From: Campylobacter gracilis
GTDB lineage: Bacteria; Campylobacterota; Campylobacteria; Campylobacterales; Campylobacteraceae
Assembly (NCBI RefSeq): GCF_001190745.1
Contig: NZ_CP012196.1
Span: 868,001-932,000, forward strand
DNA: 64,000 bases
Reading direction: 5' to 3'
Made by a program: the position numbers and the translations under genes. Positions 29,904-36,199 of the stretch are shown here, piece by piece; position 1 is the stretch's first letter; each line of letters starts with the position of its first letter. Below the pieces are notes generated by a model. That model had not been told where the DNA came from, did no database searches, and worked only from the letters and a program-made list of their open reading frames with translations.

Positions 29904-30615
29904 TGCCAAACTCCTTTAGCGCGCGTTCGTAATCAGCCGGCGTATCGATGCCGATGCTTTTGGTTTCGATCTCAAGCATCGCGATCTTTTCGCCTGCGCT
30001 TATGGCGCGAAGCTGCTCGAGTTTTTCGGTATCTTCCAGCGCTGAGGCGGGCAGGGCGCAAAACCGCTTTAAATTCCGCACGCTGTATGCGTAGATGCCG
30101 ATGTGTCCGAGGTAGCACTCGCATGCCGCGCGCGGGTAGGGGATGAGCGAGCGCGAAAAATAGATCGCAAAGCCCGCATTATCAAGCACTAGCTTGACTA
30201 AATTCGGATCCTCCGCCGCCTGAGGGCTTATGTATTTGTAGCAGCTCGCCATGAATGCGCCCTTTTGCGCGATCTTCTCGCGCGCAAAATCTTTAAATTT
30301 AATCAAATTTTCGCTCTCGAAAAAGGGCTCGTCGGCTTGGATATTGATGATGATCTCGTTCTCCGCAAGCGCCGCGTTTGCGACCGCTTCAGCGATGCGA
30401 TCGGTGCCGCTTTGATGCTCTCGCGCGGTGAGAACGGCGTCAAAGCCGTAATCTTGCGCGATCTTTAAAATTTGCGGCTCATCTACGGCGATTAGCACGC
30501 GGTCTGCCTTGGCGGCATTTTGAGCCGTTTTGATAAACATCGGCACGCCGTCAAACTCACATAAAATTTTATTTTTAAAGCGCGTCGAAGCAAGGCGCGC
30601 GGGGATTACTATCAT
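29893..30615 (-). CDS. kdsB: 3-deoxy-manno-octulosonate cytidylyltransferase KdsB
   Basis: Activates Kdo as CMP-Kdo for lipopolysaccharide inner core synthesis. Starts MIVIPARLASTRFKNKIL, the nucleotidyltransferase loop; REHQSGTDRIAEAV and INIQADEPFFE hold the metal and substrate residues; LGHIGIYAYSVRNL follows. About 240 residues, normal. The ATG at 30615 overlaps the thrC stop (ATGA); a GTG twelve bases upstream is possible but inside thrC and off the family consensus. Neighbouring lpxK supports an envelope role for the cluster. Confidence 0.96.
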   Translation of the reverse strand: MIVIPARLASTRFKNKILCEFDGVPMFIKTAQNAAKADRVLIAVDEPQILKIAQDYGFDAVLTAREHQSGTDRIAEAVANAALAENEIIINIQADEPFFESENLIKFKDFAREKIAQKGAFMASCYKYISPQAAEDPNLVKLVLDNAGFAIYFSRSLIPYPRAACECYLGHIGIYAYSVRNLKRFCALPASALEDTEKLEQLRAISAGEKIAMLEIETKSIGIDTPADYERALKEFGNEI

Positions 30616-32153
30616 TTTTTGATCCACTCCATTATGGCGTTTTTGATCTCGCTTTGCTCCACGACGCTAGAATGCACCTGCGGCGCGCTAAAAAGGCGCG
30701 AGATCTGCGGCGGAATGTCGCTGCGAAATTCCTTCGAAAGCGCGATCATATCGGCTCGTTCGTCCTCGCAAGCTCTGCCTTTGATCGCGCCGATCATCGA
30801 CGGCGTAAATTTGATCCACTTTGCGGTCGAGATGACGAGATTTAGGCGGCTTTCGTCAAGCAGCTTGAAGCAGGTCGCCGTGTGTGGGTCGATCAGCACG
30901 CCGCGGCTGCTTTCTTGCTTGATAAACTTAGCGCACTGCGTATCGTCGCAAAAATCCGCCTCGAAGACCTCGCGCAGCTTCGCAAGCTCGCTTGCGTCTA
31001 GCTTATAAAATTTATCTCGCGCCAGGCTCTGCATCAGCTCGCTCGTGCGCGCATCGCCGAACATATCGCTAAGCAGCCGCTCGACGTTGGAGCTAATCAA
31101 AATATCCATCGCAGGGCTGATCGTACGGATAAGCTCGCGATTTCGTAGATCGTAGATGCCGCGCGTAAAAAGCTCGGTCAGGATATTGTTTGCGTTTGAA
31201 GCGATCTTGATTTTGCCGATCTTTGCACCCATTTTTTTTGCGAAATACGCTCCCAACGCGTTACCGAAATTTCCGCTAGGCACTATGACGTCGAAAGTGT
31301 TAAATTTAGCGCTCTGCGCGCTATTTGCGCCCGCTGCGCCGCCAAAATTTTTGCCGCACGCCTGGCACTGATCGCTTTGCTTTAAATTTTGCTCGGGGCT
31401 CAATACGCCGTGCTTTGAGAAATAGATGCTAGCATAGAGGTAGTAGATGATCTGAAATAAAATCCTGCCGAAATTTACCGAGTTTGCGGCGCTTAAATTT
31501 AAATTTGCCCGCGCGAGCTCGTTTTTGAAATCCTCGTCAGCCAGCAGTGATTTTAGCGCGCGTTGCGTATCGTCGAAGTTGCCGCGCACGCCTAAAATTT
31601 TAAGATTTGCCGCGCTTTGCTTTACCATCTGCTGGCGCTGTATCTCGCTCGTGCCGCCCTGCGGATAGAGGCAGACCGCTTTGATGTTTTCGTCGTCCGC
31701 AAAAGCCTCCAGCGTCGCAGGTCCCGTGTCGCCGCTCGTAGCGCACATTATTAAAAATTTTTCATTTCTAGCTTTTGCGATGCTTTTTAAAAGCGCGCCG
31801 AAAGGTTGCAGCGCCATATCCTTAAACGCAAGCGTCGGGCCGTGATAAAGCTCCAAAATATAGGCATTCTCGCTTAGCTTTTTGATCTGGACGGGGCAGG
31901 CGGAATTTTCAAATTTATCGTAGCGCCTTAGCGCGCTCTCAAAGATCTCGCTGCTTACGTCAAAACCAAAGCTCTCGATGATTTTAAGCGCGATCTGTTT
32001 GTAGCTCAGATCCTCGCACTGCTTAAAAAAATCCTCGCTCAAAAGTGGCAGCCGCTCGGGGCTGAAAAGCCCGCCGCCGCGCGCGCTCGGATTTAGCAGC
32101 GCGTAGCTAAGATCCGCTTTTTGCGAAAAATCTCTCGTAGAAACCAGTTTCAT
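30612..32153 (-). CDS. thrC: Threonine synthase ThrC
   Basis: PLP enzyme converting O-phosphohomoserine to threonine. The PLP lysine is K111 in LYHGPTLAFKDMALQ. SGDTGPATLEAF near 140, YPQGGTSEIQRQQM near 163 and IVPSGNFGNALGAYFAKKMG near 290 are class II threonine synthase signatures. 513 residues, somewhat long because of a short insert around 252-285 (KQSDQCQACGKNFGGAAGAN), which has two CxxC-spaced cysteines. The insert sits between the large-domain strands just before the phosphate-binding SGNFG. Same thrC-kdsB order as in C. jejuni. Confidence 0.96.
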   Translation of the reverse strand: MKLVSTRDFSQKADLSYALLNPSARGGGLFSPERLPLLSEDFFKQCEDLSYKQIALKIIESFGFDVSSEIFESALRRYDKFENSACPVQIKKLSENAYILELYHGPTLAFKDMALQPFGALLKSIAKARNEKFLIMCATSGDTGPATLEAFADDENIKAVCLYPQGGTSEIQRQQMVKQSAANLKILGVRGNFDDTQRALKSLLADEDFKNELARANLNLSAANSVNFGRILFQIIYYLYASIYFSKHGVLSPEQNLKQSDQCQACGKNFGGAAGANSAQSAKFNTFDVIVPSGNFGNALGAYFAKKMGAKIGKIKIASNANNILTELFTRGIYDLRNRELIRTISPAMDILISSNVERLLSDMFGDARTSELMQSLARDKFYKLDASELAKLREVFEADFCDDTQCAKFIKQESSRGVLIDPHTATCFKLLDESRLNLVISTAKWIKFTPSMIGAIKGRACEDERADMIALSKEFRSDIPPQISRLFSAPQVHSSVVEQSEIKNAIMEWIKK

Positions 32154-33149: not shown

Positions 33150-34256
33150 TTATTTTATCATAGCTTGGTTTATGTAGTTTTGAATTTTGCGGATAAAGTT
33201 TTCGCTTAGCTTCAAATTTAACAAAATCACCGAAATTTCCGCGCTCAAATCCCTCAATTTCACGTAATCTTTCGCCGTGCATAGGATATGCTCCGCGTCC
33301 TCGCGCCTTAGCAGCTCTAAAATCTGCTCTTTTTTGAAATCGTAATGATCCGGAAAGAAGGCGTGCGCTTTTGCGAGCGGTAAAAATCGCTCTAAGCGCC
33401 AAGGCTTGGCGATAGCGCTGATTAAGATCGTGCGGGATCTCTCAAAGCTCGCTTCTTTGGGGCTTGAAATTTTATCCTCGGCGGTTTTCAAATTTAAATC
33501 CGAAATTTTATCCGCGGCGCGATTTAAATTTGAATCCGAAATTTTATCCGCGGCGAAATTTGAAATTTCATCCGCAGGATTTAAAATTTCATCCGCGCCG
33601 TTTAGCTTACTTTGCAGATCCGCTGCCGAAACGATCTTAAAGCTCTGCGCAATATCGCTGGGTGCGGGTATGAAATCCGCAAATTTATAAAAAAACGGCG
33701 GGTAGCGATACGCAGCGAACGGCAGGCAAAAGGGCAGCTTCGGCGCACTTTGCGGGCGCAGCAAGATATCAAATTTAGAGATATTAAATTTAGAAAACCC
33801 GTCGTCTAAGATCACCAGCTCAAAGCCGAGAGTTTGCGCGCGCAAAATCCCTGCGGCGCGATCTTCGCTGACGATTACGTTTGCGCCGCGTAAAAACAGC
33901 GCGTATTCCATCGCCTCATCGCCGCTTTGCTCTACGTCGCAAAGTATCCGTCCGCCGAGAGCTACTTCGAGCAAGCCTCTACTTTTGCGCCCGTATCCGC
34001 GAAGGATGATGCAGGTTTTAAACTCCCCGTTAAATTCTTTAAAAAGCGCCCGCACTAGCGGGGTTTTTCCGCTGCCGCCGAGGGTTAAATTTCCGACGCT
34101 GATTATTGGAATTTTAAATTTTTGCGGCTTAGCAAAGAGCCTTTTTATGCAGACGATAAGCGTATAAAGCAGCGATAACGGCGCTAAAATCACTCCGAGC
34201 GCAAGCCACGCGGGGCTCGGGTCGTATAAGTTTCGCTCGATTAGGAGTTTAAACAC
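33150..34256 (-). CDS. lpxK: Tetraacyldisaccharide 4'-kinase LpxK with internal repeat insert
   Basis: Adds the 4'-phosphate of lipid A at the inner membrane. N-terminal membrane helix (LGVILAPLSLLYTLIVCI, 20-37), then SVGNLTLGGSGKTPLVRAL (53-71), the P-loop, and RGYGRKSRG (86-94), VILDDGFSKF (148-157). 368 residues, longer than the ~305-330 expected. Residues ~217-268 consist of repeated AADKIS(D)xNL units encoded by a 36-bp tandem repeat, between the two kinase subdomains. The C-terminus FPDHYDFKKEQ is conserved. The start overlaps the DegT-like gene by eight bases. Confidence 0.94.
   Translation of the reverse strand: MFKLLIERNLYDPSPAWLALGVILAPLSLLYTLIVCIKRLFAKPQKFKIPIISVGNLTLGGSGKTPLVRALFKEFNGEFKTCIILRGYGRKSRGLLEVALGGRILCDVEQSGDEAMEYALFLRGANVIVSEDRAAGILRAQTLGFELVILDDGFSKFNISKFDILLRPQSAPKLPFCLPFAAYRYPPFFYKFADFIPAPSDIAQSFKIVSAADLQSKLNGADEILNPADEISNFAADKISDSNLNRAADKISDLNLKTAEDKISSPKEASFERSRTILISAIAKPWRLERFLPLAKAHAFFPDHYDFKKEQILELLRREDAEHILCTAKDYVKLRDLSAEISVILLNLKLSENFIRKIQNYINQAMIK
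33466..33597. repeat. In-frame tandem repeat inside lpxK (GAAATTT(T/C)ATCC core)
   Basis: Cores begin at 33466, 33502, 33538, 33562 and 33583, spaced 36, 36, 24 and 21 bp, all multiples of three. Units at 33502 and 33538 share 18 consecutive bases. They encode the AD(E/K)IS phrases of the LpxK insert. Confidence 0.8.
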
Positions 34257-35385
34257 GATTTTGCGCTATCTCTTTGATCTGCTCGCAGATGTAGCTCACA
34301 TCGTCGTCGCTAAGCGCCGTGTAGATCGGCAGGGATAAAATTTGCTGATAGTTTTTAAGCGCATTCGGAAAGTCATTGACCTTGTAATTATATTTGCTTT
34401 TGTAGTAGCTTAGCAGATGCACCGGCACGTAGTGCAGCGATACGCTTACTCCGCGCGCGATCAGCGCTTTGGCGAAATCGTCGCGGTTTTTGTCGATCTT
34501 TACGATGAATTGAGTGTAGATATGCTCCTCGCTATCGCTTGGAAGCGTCACGTGCGGGCAGTTTGCGAGCTGCTCGCGGTAGGCTGCGGCGATCTGCTTG
34601 CGGCGTTTTATAAAGGCGTCGGTTTTTTCAAACTGAGCGATGGCGTAGGCGGAATTTATAGCGTTAAGATCGTATTTTTGACCGATGCGATCGACGTCGT
34701 AGGTAAAGGACATATTGCCGTCTTTGTAAAAGGCGTCTCCCACGATGCCGCCGTTTCTTAAAATTTGCGCGGCGCTTGCTATCTCATCGTCGTTCGTAAC
34801 GAAAAAGCCCGCCGTAGAGATCGCGTCTTGCGCTTGAGGATTGATCTGAAAGCACGATATGAGCGAGCTTTTAAGCGCTCCGATTTTTGCGCCTTTATAG
34901 GTAGCGCCCATAGCGCGGCACGCATCGTCTATAAGGATGATATTTTCGCTTTTGGCGACCTCGCTGATGGCGTCTATATCCGCAGCAAGTCCTGCGATGT
35001 GCGAGATGAAAGCGCATTTTAGCTTTTTGTGGCGGTTCTGATCTATCGTGCGAGCAAGGCTTTCGCTCGTGATATTAAAGCTTATCGGATCGATGTCTAC
35101 GAAAACGGGCTCTGCGTCGAAGTGGCGGATCACTTCGGCGACGTTGGGAAAGGAATTTACGGAGCATAAAATTTTATCCCCACGCTTAATATCCATCGCA
35201 CAAAGCGCCAGATGCAGCGCCGTCGTGCCGCTCGTAGTCGATATGGCATGCTTTACGCCGAAGTATTTGCAAATATCCTCTTCAAAAATTTCGCTATATC
35301 TTATATCGCTATTGTAGAGGGCGCTTTTAATTAAGTCTTCCTCTTTTTTATCGATTTGAGCCTTATAAAACGGTATCTCTTTCAT
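34249..35385 (-). CDS. DegT/DnrJ/EryC1/StrS-family protein lacking the PLP lysine
   Basis: Fold type I aminotransferase-like protein of 378 residues, the class that aminates nucleotide sugars. SGTTALHLAL (52-61), FVDIDP (95-100), and IDDACRAMGATYKG (152-165) align with the family. In the loop that normally reads SFHxxK and holds the PLP lysine, the sequence is SCFQINPQAQDAISTAGFFVTN (177-198), with no lysine or histidine at the position. The usual GEGG is also changed to STAG. It may therefore be a non-aminating relative or a regulatory/structural protein. It lies between nadE (11 bp) and lpxK (overlap), which suggests an envelope link. Confidence 0.85.
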   Translation of the reverse strand: MKEIPFYKAQIDKKEEDLIKSALYNSDIRYSEIFEEDICKYFGVKHAISTTSGTTALHLALCAMDIKRGDKILCSVNSFPNVAEVIRHFDAEPVFVDIDPISFNITSESLARTIDQNRHKKLKCAFISHIAGLAADIDAISEVAKSENIILIDDACRAMGATYKGAKIGALKSSLISCFQINPQAQDAISTAGFFVTNDDEIASAAQILRNGGIVGDAFYKDGNMSFTYDVDRIGQKYDLNAINSAYAIAQFEKTDAFIKRRKQIAAAYREQLANCPHVTLPSDSEEHIYTQFIVKIDKNRDDFAKALIARGVSVSLHYVPVHLLSYYKSKYNYKVNDFPNALKNYQQILSLPIYTALSDDDVSYICEQIKEIAQNRV

Positions 35386-35395
35386 AAATCTCTCC

Positions 35396-36199
35396 TTAGT
35401 GTGCAGGCTCTATGCGAGCGACCGCGGGTTCGCGAAGCTTAAAATTATTTTTAAGAATTCTACGGACGACAAATTTCACCAGTTCTTGATTGTGGCGCGA
35501 GTTTTGCAGATATTTTAGATCGTTTGCGTTTATTCGCTCGCCTGAGCGAAATTTCATCCGCAACGCTTCGTGTGAAAAAATATCTCTTAGCACGCTATCT
35601 AAAATCTCGTAGCTGTATCCAAGCTCACGCTCGTCGCTTTGGTTTTCCCATAGATCGGCGCTTGGGGCTTTTTTTATGATCGCATCGTCTATGCATAAAA
35701 TTTTTGCGAATTTAAACAGATCGGTTTTTAAAATTTCTCCGATCGGATTAAACGCGCAGGCCAGATCGCCGTAGATCGTGCCGTAACCTAGCATCCTCTC
35801 GCTAAGATTGCTCGTGCCTACGACTACACCACGCTTAGCCACGCTGTAATCATAAAGCAAGCTCATTCTTACGCGCGCGGCGAAATTTCCGATGCGAAGA
35901 GCGCTTGCACCGGGATTTAAAGCGGTAAAATTTTCTACAAATGGCGCGATCTCTTGGATTTCGTAGGGGATATTAAAGGATTCGCAGTGAAAGATGCCGT
36001 CTGCCATATTTTCTAAATTTGAACCCGCGCTAGGCAGGATAAGCCCGTAAGTGGGGATCTCGGTAAGTGCACAAAGCGCAGAAACCACGGCGCTGTCAAG
36101 CCCACCGCTGATGCCTACTACAAAGGCGTCCGCGCCCGTTTCATCGAGTCTCTCCGATAAAAAATCGGTCAGTTGCGGCAGCAAATCGTCCAAAAACAT
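35396..36199 (-). CDS. nadE: NAD+ synthetase NadE
   Basis: Last step of NAD synthesis, ammonia- or glutamine-dependent amidation of deamido-NAD. The PP-loop is VVGISGGLDSAVVSAL (27-42). VVGTSNLSERMLGYGTIYGD near 125 and FNPIGEILKTDLFKFAK near 150 are the substrate loops, and KAPSADLWENQSDERELG follows. 267 residues with no glutaminase domain, so it should use ammonia. First gene of the long minus-strand run; diverges from the metallo-hydrolase gene 95 bp away. Confidence 0.96.
   Translation of the reverse strand: MFLDDLLPQLTDFLSERLDETGADAFVVGISGGLDSAVVSALCALTEIPTYGLILPSAGSNLENMADGIFHCESFNIPYEIQEIAPFVENFTALNPGASALRIGNFAARVRMSLLYDYSVAKRGVVVGTSNLSERMLGYGTIYGDLACAFNPIGEILKTDLFKFAKILCIDDAIIKKAPSADLWENQSDERELGYSYEILDSVLRDIFSHEALRMKFRSGERINANDLKYLQNSRHNQELVKFVVRRILKNNFKLREPAVARIEPAH

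Follow-up and report, generated by a model that had tools for sequence, protein, structure and literature searches.

Sugar aminotransferases of the DegT fold, such as ArnB, PseC and DesI, are recognized by a Schiff-base lysine in an SFxxxK loop, by a GEGG-like glycine turn and by the residues that contact the PLP cofactor. A DegT enzyme without the lysine cannot form the internal aldimine. ArnB is the UDP-4-amino-4-deoxy-L-arabinose aminotransferase and carries K188 and AEGG, while PseC is the UDP-4-amino-4,6-dideoxy-N-acetyl-altrosamine transaminase, with an SFHPK...GEGG loop. The ColD/RfbH dehydratases have the same fold without the Schiff-base lysine and carry a His together with an intact GEGG loop.

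We have analyzed a window of 64,000 nucleotides from the genome of Campylobacter gracilis (2.28 Mb, a single contig; NZ_CP012196.1, positions 868,001 to 932,000) that contains a gene, called X here, coding for a protein of this fold. The assignment to Campylobacter also follows from its orthologues and from the gene content. ArnB (PDB 1mdo, 8sng and 4oca) gave the best sequence-profile (E 2.4e-64) and fold match (TM 0.87-0.88), and shares with X the C-terminal HxxxxH...YY[RK]x[RK] pattern and the equivalent of D154. However, X has Ala and STAG in place of K188 and AEGG, and scored 205.1 bits against the cut-off of 631 for the ArnB family (NCBIfam NF008658). In the case of PseC (PDB 2fnu, TM 0.90), which provided the best NCBIfam model and has a similar HYIPxH segment, the loop is again missing from X and the score is also below the cut-off (TIGR03588, 265.1 vs 423.5 bits). 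Actually, no sugar-aminotransferase NCBIfam family reached its cut-off with X. As for ColD/RfbH, X lacks the GEGG and, as a sequence-only reading of this DNA had remarked, the His as well: none is found at residues 178-193, which rules out a His-type dehydratase, and the RfbH model gave only 109 bits against a cut-off of 423. A genuine RfbH-type His dehydratase (L001, SFYPPHHMTMGEGG, 664 bits with the same cut-off) is encoded in the same genome at C1:1983223-1984374.

A literature search covering the X family, DegT genes beside lpxK or nadE and lysine-less DegT proteins found no description of this group. The closest published parallel is Rv3778c of M. tuberculosis, a lysine-less homologue of PLP-fold enzymes that is expressed and was judged noncatalytic (PMC12910592). 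It belongs to the cysteine-desulfurase lineage, not to DegT, and that paper describes neither an order-wide family nor a linkage to lpxK.

The X gene, its neighbours and its relatives

An ORF check on the minus strand placed the ATG start codon at 35385 and the stop at 34249, giving 378 aa and agreeing exactly in position, strand and length with the earlier call (Table 1). The Pfam domain DegT_DnrJ_EryC1 (PF01041) spans residues 14-370 with 284.8 bits (cut-off 19.8, E 1.5e-84), and is matched by 39/39 X orthologues of set A1. The AlphaFold model (pLDDT 90.5, pTM 0.89) has the type I aminotransferase fold, and the structure search returned ArnB, PseC and GDP-perosamine synthase as the nearest structures, with TM of about 0.87-0.92 to the first two. 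The full-length match and the confident model bear out the earlier statement that, outside the loop, the fold is well kept.

Table 1. Features of the X locus (positions in the window; residue numbers are those of X)
Feature	Position	Strand	Remarks
X, DegT-fold protein without Schiff-base lysine	34249..35385	-	378 aa, P0001
lpxK (lipid A 4'-kinase)	33150..34256	-	GTG start; shares its first 8 bp with the end of X
nadE (NAD synthetase)	35396..36199	-	upstream; ends 10 bp before the X start codon
Residues 67-77, KRGDKxxCSVN	35155..35187	-	conserved family-specific segment
Residues 87-97, RHFDAEPxFVD	35095..35127	-	conserved family-specific segment
Asp154, pyridine-N1 aspartate equivalent	34924..34926	-	kept in 65/69 family members
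Former PLP-lysine loop, C178-G193 (CFQINPQAQDAISTAG)	34807..34854	-	by alignment; Ala185 at the Schiff-base position, STAG replaces GEGG
Residues 301-305, RDDFA	34471..34485	-	R301 and D302 invariant, 69/69
Residues 315-332, LHYxPxHLLSYYKxKY motif	34390..34443	-	P321, Y327, Y328 and K331 invariant

Downstream of X the genes on the same strand are lpxK, argB, thrC and kdsB, in this order. Wherever enough of the flank could be read X was located directly upstream of lpxK, usually with nadE before it, and the order nadE-X-lpxK or X-lpxK was found in Campylobacteraceae, Sulfurospirillaceae, Helicobacteraceae and the families numbered here f3 and f5 to f13. The cluster of NAD and lipid A genes proposed from the sequence is therefore genuine and conserved in order. 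The lysine-bearing sister proteins L115 and L116, for their part, are encoded next to glycan genes, within glycan clusters. In C. jejuni-like genomes (genus g3, its name being inferred) nadE abuts lpxK and X is absent, a clean loss indicating that X is not essential for LpxK itself. In the same way, LpxK is present in 297/298 genomes and X in 179/298, so that X is accessory to LpxK and not required for it. Two peculiarities of the neighbouring products were also seen. The LpxK of the window has an insertion of about 60 residues with a 36-bp tandem repeat (AADKISDxNLNx, 33466-33604) that none of the aligned LpxK sequences from relatives has, and ThrC (30612-32153, 513 aa) has a Cys-bearing stretch, SDQCQACGKNF, resembling an insertion.

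The 179 genomes with X orthologues, a few of which also carry a lysine-bearing sister caught by the same search, represent 44 of the 58 genera sampled in the phylum. Among the matches listed, all X orthologues belong to the order Campylobacterales. They include the 14/14 genomes sampled for the genus (that of the window among them), as well as Sulfurospirillum and enterohepatic Helicobacter. In a quick tree, built without bootstrap, a branch with SH-aLRT 100 separated the X proteins from 20 DegT proteins that have the lysine and from one RfbH of the His type. The X subtree broadly tracks the host families, suggesting that inheritance has been mainly vertical. Among the nearest lysine-bearing relatives (275-344 bits to the X profile) are the SFYATK sisters L115, L116 and L157-L160, which unlike X have both the lysine and GEGG intact. 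This sister family is sporadic, being found in 6/298 genomes.

A drifting loop and conserved surfaces

Where SFxxxK...GEGG would be expected, X has QINPQAQDAISTAG, and Ala185 fills the lysine column. We compared the loop with those of 21 DegT proteins of Campylobacterota, 20 with Lys and one RfbH with His. By alignment, X has Gln for Ser at 180, Ile for Phe at 181, Ala for Lys at 185 and S190-T-A-G193 for G190-E-G-G193, over a loop of the same length as that of the SFYATKTLSTGEGG (SFYATK-type) sisters. Neither Lys nor His occurs from C178 to G193, and E191 is not retained across the family. The loss of the PLP lysine and the change of GEGG to STAG, both noticed in the first reading, are thus confirmed. 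Asp154, Phe79 and Thr54 are nevertheless present, as in the PLP sugar aminotransferases. In DegT structures Asp154 corresponds to the partner of the PLP ring nitrogen, while the residues equivalent to Phe79 and Thr54 contact the face of the ring and the phosphate, respectively. Besides the aspartate, an aromatic residue or His at 79 is kept in 65/69 members and Thr or Ser at 54 in 60/69. Asp154 has been lost in L105, L107, L110 and L112, which retain the C-terminal motif.

The absence of lysine at column 185 extends to 65 of the 69 non-redundant members (below 80% identity). The other four have loops that read SFNPHK or SFFPDK within an otherwise lysine-less clade; L127, L128 and L130 come from one family and L129 from elsewhere (families f8 and f2). 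On the tree these are apparently two changes inside the clade, two gains being the simplest account.

The sequence-only reading had also taken the loop for an ordered rewrite, which would make it a new conserved motif. This did not hold. Once orthologues were aligned, NPQAQDAI proved common only to the nearest relatives; positions 184-192 drift, with entropies of 2.0-3.4 bits, while other surfaces are invariant, and a motif is rejected in a region whose variability is among the highest in the family. Among the 12 most divergent members identity to the consensus was 29% in the lysine loop vs 46% over the whole protein, and reached 69-83% in segments 66-77, 86-97, 298-305, 315-332 and 346-355 (50% in 226-240). 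Invariant or nearly so are K67 (68/69), R68, N77, R87, F89-D90, E92-P93, D97, Y229, A266, R301-D302, P321, Y327-Y328, K331 (69/69), S351 and P353. A set of family-specific residues, uncommon in the comparison proteins, comprises R68, N77, R87, F89, D90, E92, D230, D302, Y327, K331 and L343. The segment 315-332, conserved from residue 317 as LHYIPLHLLSYYKxKY, is homologous to the substrate-side segment HFxxxHxxxYYRxR of ArnB. In the secondary structure of the model, residues 67-71, 87-92 and 120-121 precede strands of the parallel sheet; by the topology of the fold they would thus face away from the side that holds Asp154 and the cofactor pocket. Conservation has left the lysine loop and is now found in the C-terminal segment and in patches specific to the family.

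Alternative explanations

The loss of a catalytic residue could be the mark of a decaying pseudogene or of a sequencing artefact. Against this, the matches in 179 genomes form a single clade, those listed have no internal stops, and the gene order is conserved. The dN/dS of X was 0.015-0.10, compared with 0.05-0.17 for lpxK and 0.03-0.21 for nadE, and was the lowest in 13/13 pairs of close relatives (simple Nei-Gojobori counts, with some dS values near saturation). With values below those of both flanking enzymes in every pair decay is excluded, as the earlier reading had maintained, and we give a pseudogene or artefact practically no credence. Judged by its sequence, X is a working protein and not a damaged enzyme. 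It might then use non-covalent PMP or PLP for a lysine-free reaction on nucleotide sugars (dehydration, epimerisation or similar), comparable to what ColD/RfbH do with their His. The retention of D154, aromatic 79 and T54 in most of the family is in favor, and the PDB titles of Lys-to-Ala forms of ArnB (4oca), perosamine synthase (3dr4) and WbpE (3nys), crystallised with PLP and/or a sugar ligand, indicate that such binding is possible without the lysine. We still find this unlikely: the loop offers no conserved His or other base, S180, found in 21/21 comparison proteins, is Q, R, G, N or D in half of the X family, the four members that lost D154 keep the family motif, and the same genome already encodes L001, a true RfbH of the His type whose GEGG is intact.

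It is less probable still that the catalytic lysine has moved, the Schiff base being formed by K186, present in many members, or by K331 or K67 of either subunit. The constancy of K331 and K67, the Lys or Arg at 186 in about 46% of members and the four proteins with Lys at 185 itself would fit. However, position 186 is unconserved and is Gln in the window protein, K331 aligns with Arg in ArnB, which makes a basic side chain at this position a common trait of the ArnB group, and Lys185 is confined to two nested lineages. We place equally little weight on a heterodimer in which X would be the non-catalytic subunit and a DegT paralogue with the lysine the catalytic one, an arrangement like that of LCB1 in serine palmitoyltransferase. 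The genome does code for further DegT proteins that have the Lys or a His (the PglE-like L002 and the RfbH L001), but no lysine-bearing partner adjoins X in the loci read, and the closest sister family is too rare, at 6/298 genomes, to be an obligate partner. The GnnB-like paralogue L120 does not track X either. It occurs in 172/298 genomes, with and without X, so mutual exclusion of the two is rejected and L120 does not explain where X was lost.

Proposed origin and role of X

The explanation that we favor, with a probability of about 0.5, is that X belongs to an old, vertically inherited DegT-fold family of the Campylobacterales that derives from an ArnB/PseC-like aminotransferase, lost the lysine a single time, at its base, and was repurposed as a non-transaminating, ligand-binding accessory or regulator of the envelope. 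The ancestor would have been an aminotransferase of nucleotide sugars, and after the loss of the PLP-binding lysine the protein would have been retained for another purpose. X would fold as the usual DegT dimer and would be unable to carry PLP as an internal aldimine, making ordinary ping-pong transamination very unlikely. Since D154, residue 79 and T/S54 are mostly kept, the cofactor pocket has not been erased and could hold PLP or PMP non-covalently. X has probably retained the ability to bind a nucleotide sugar or sugar phosphate, and would hold it by the C-terminal segment that is kept. With this substrate-side segment preserved and new patches of conservation gained, a ligand-binding dimer that does not transaminate is the simplest explanation. 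The gene neighbourhood suggests that X may assist or regulate an envelope step near LpxK, that is, the lipid A/LPS step of lpxK or of the nearby kdsB. Any of the options first raised for this protein, a new activity, sugar binding or regulation, may apply. More tentatively, and with rather less confidence than in the favored explanation, X could represent an order-wide, PLP-independent family that the Campylobacterales have recruited specifically to regulate lipid A/LPS synthesis or to act as its scaffold, and that senses a nucleotide sugar or sugar phosphate rather than transaminating it.

By its DegT match alone X would be labelled an aminotransferase in databases, although nearly the whole family lacks the residue needed. 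Its protein sequence changes more slowly than those of NadE and LpxK, which suggests an important role in most Campylobacterales, not in the C. jejuni-like genomes. With a lysine loss of single origin, followed by two apparent regains, this family would serve as a natural experiment on the conversion of a PLP enzyme into a non-enzyme.
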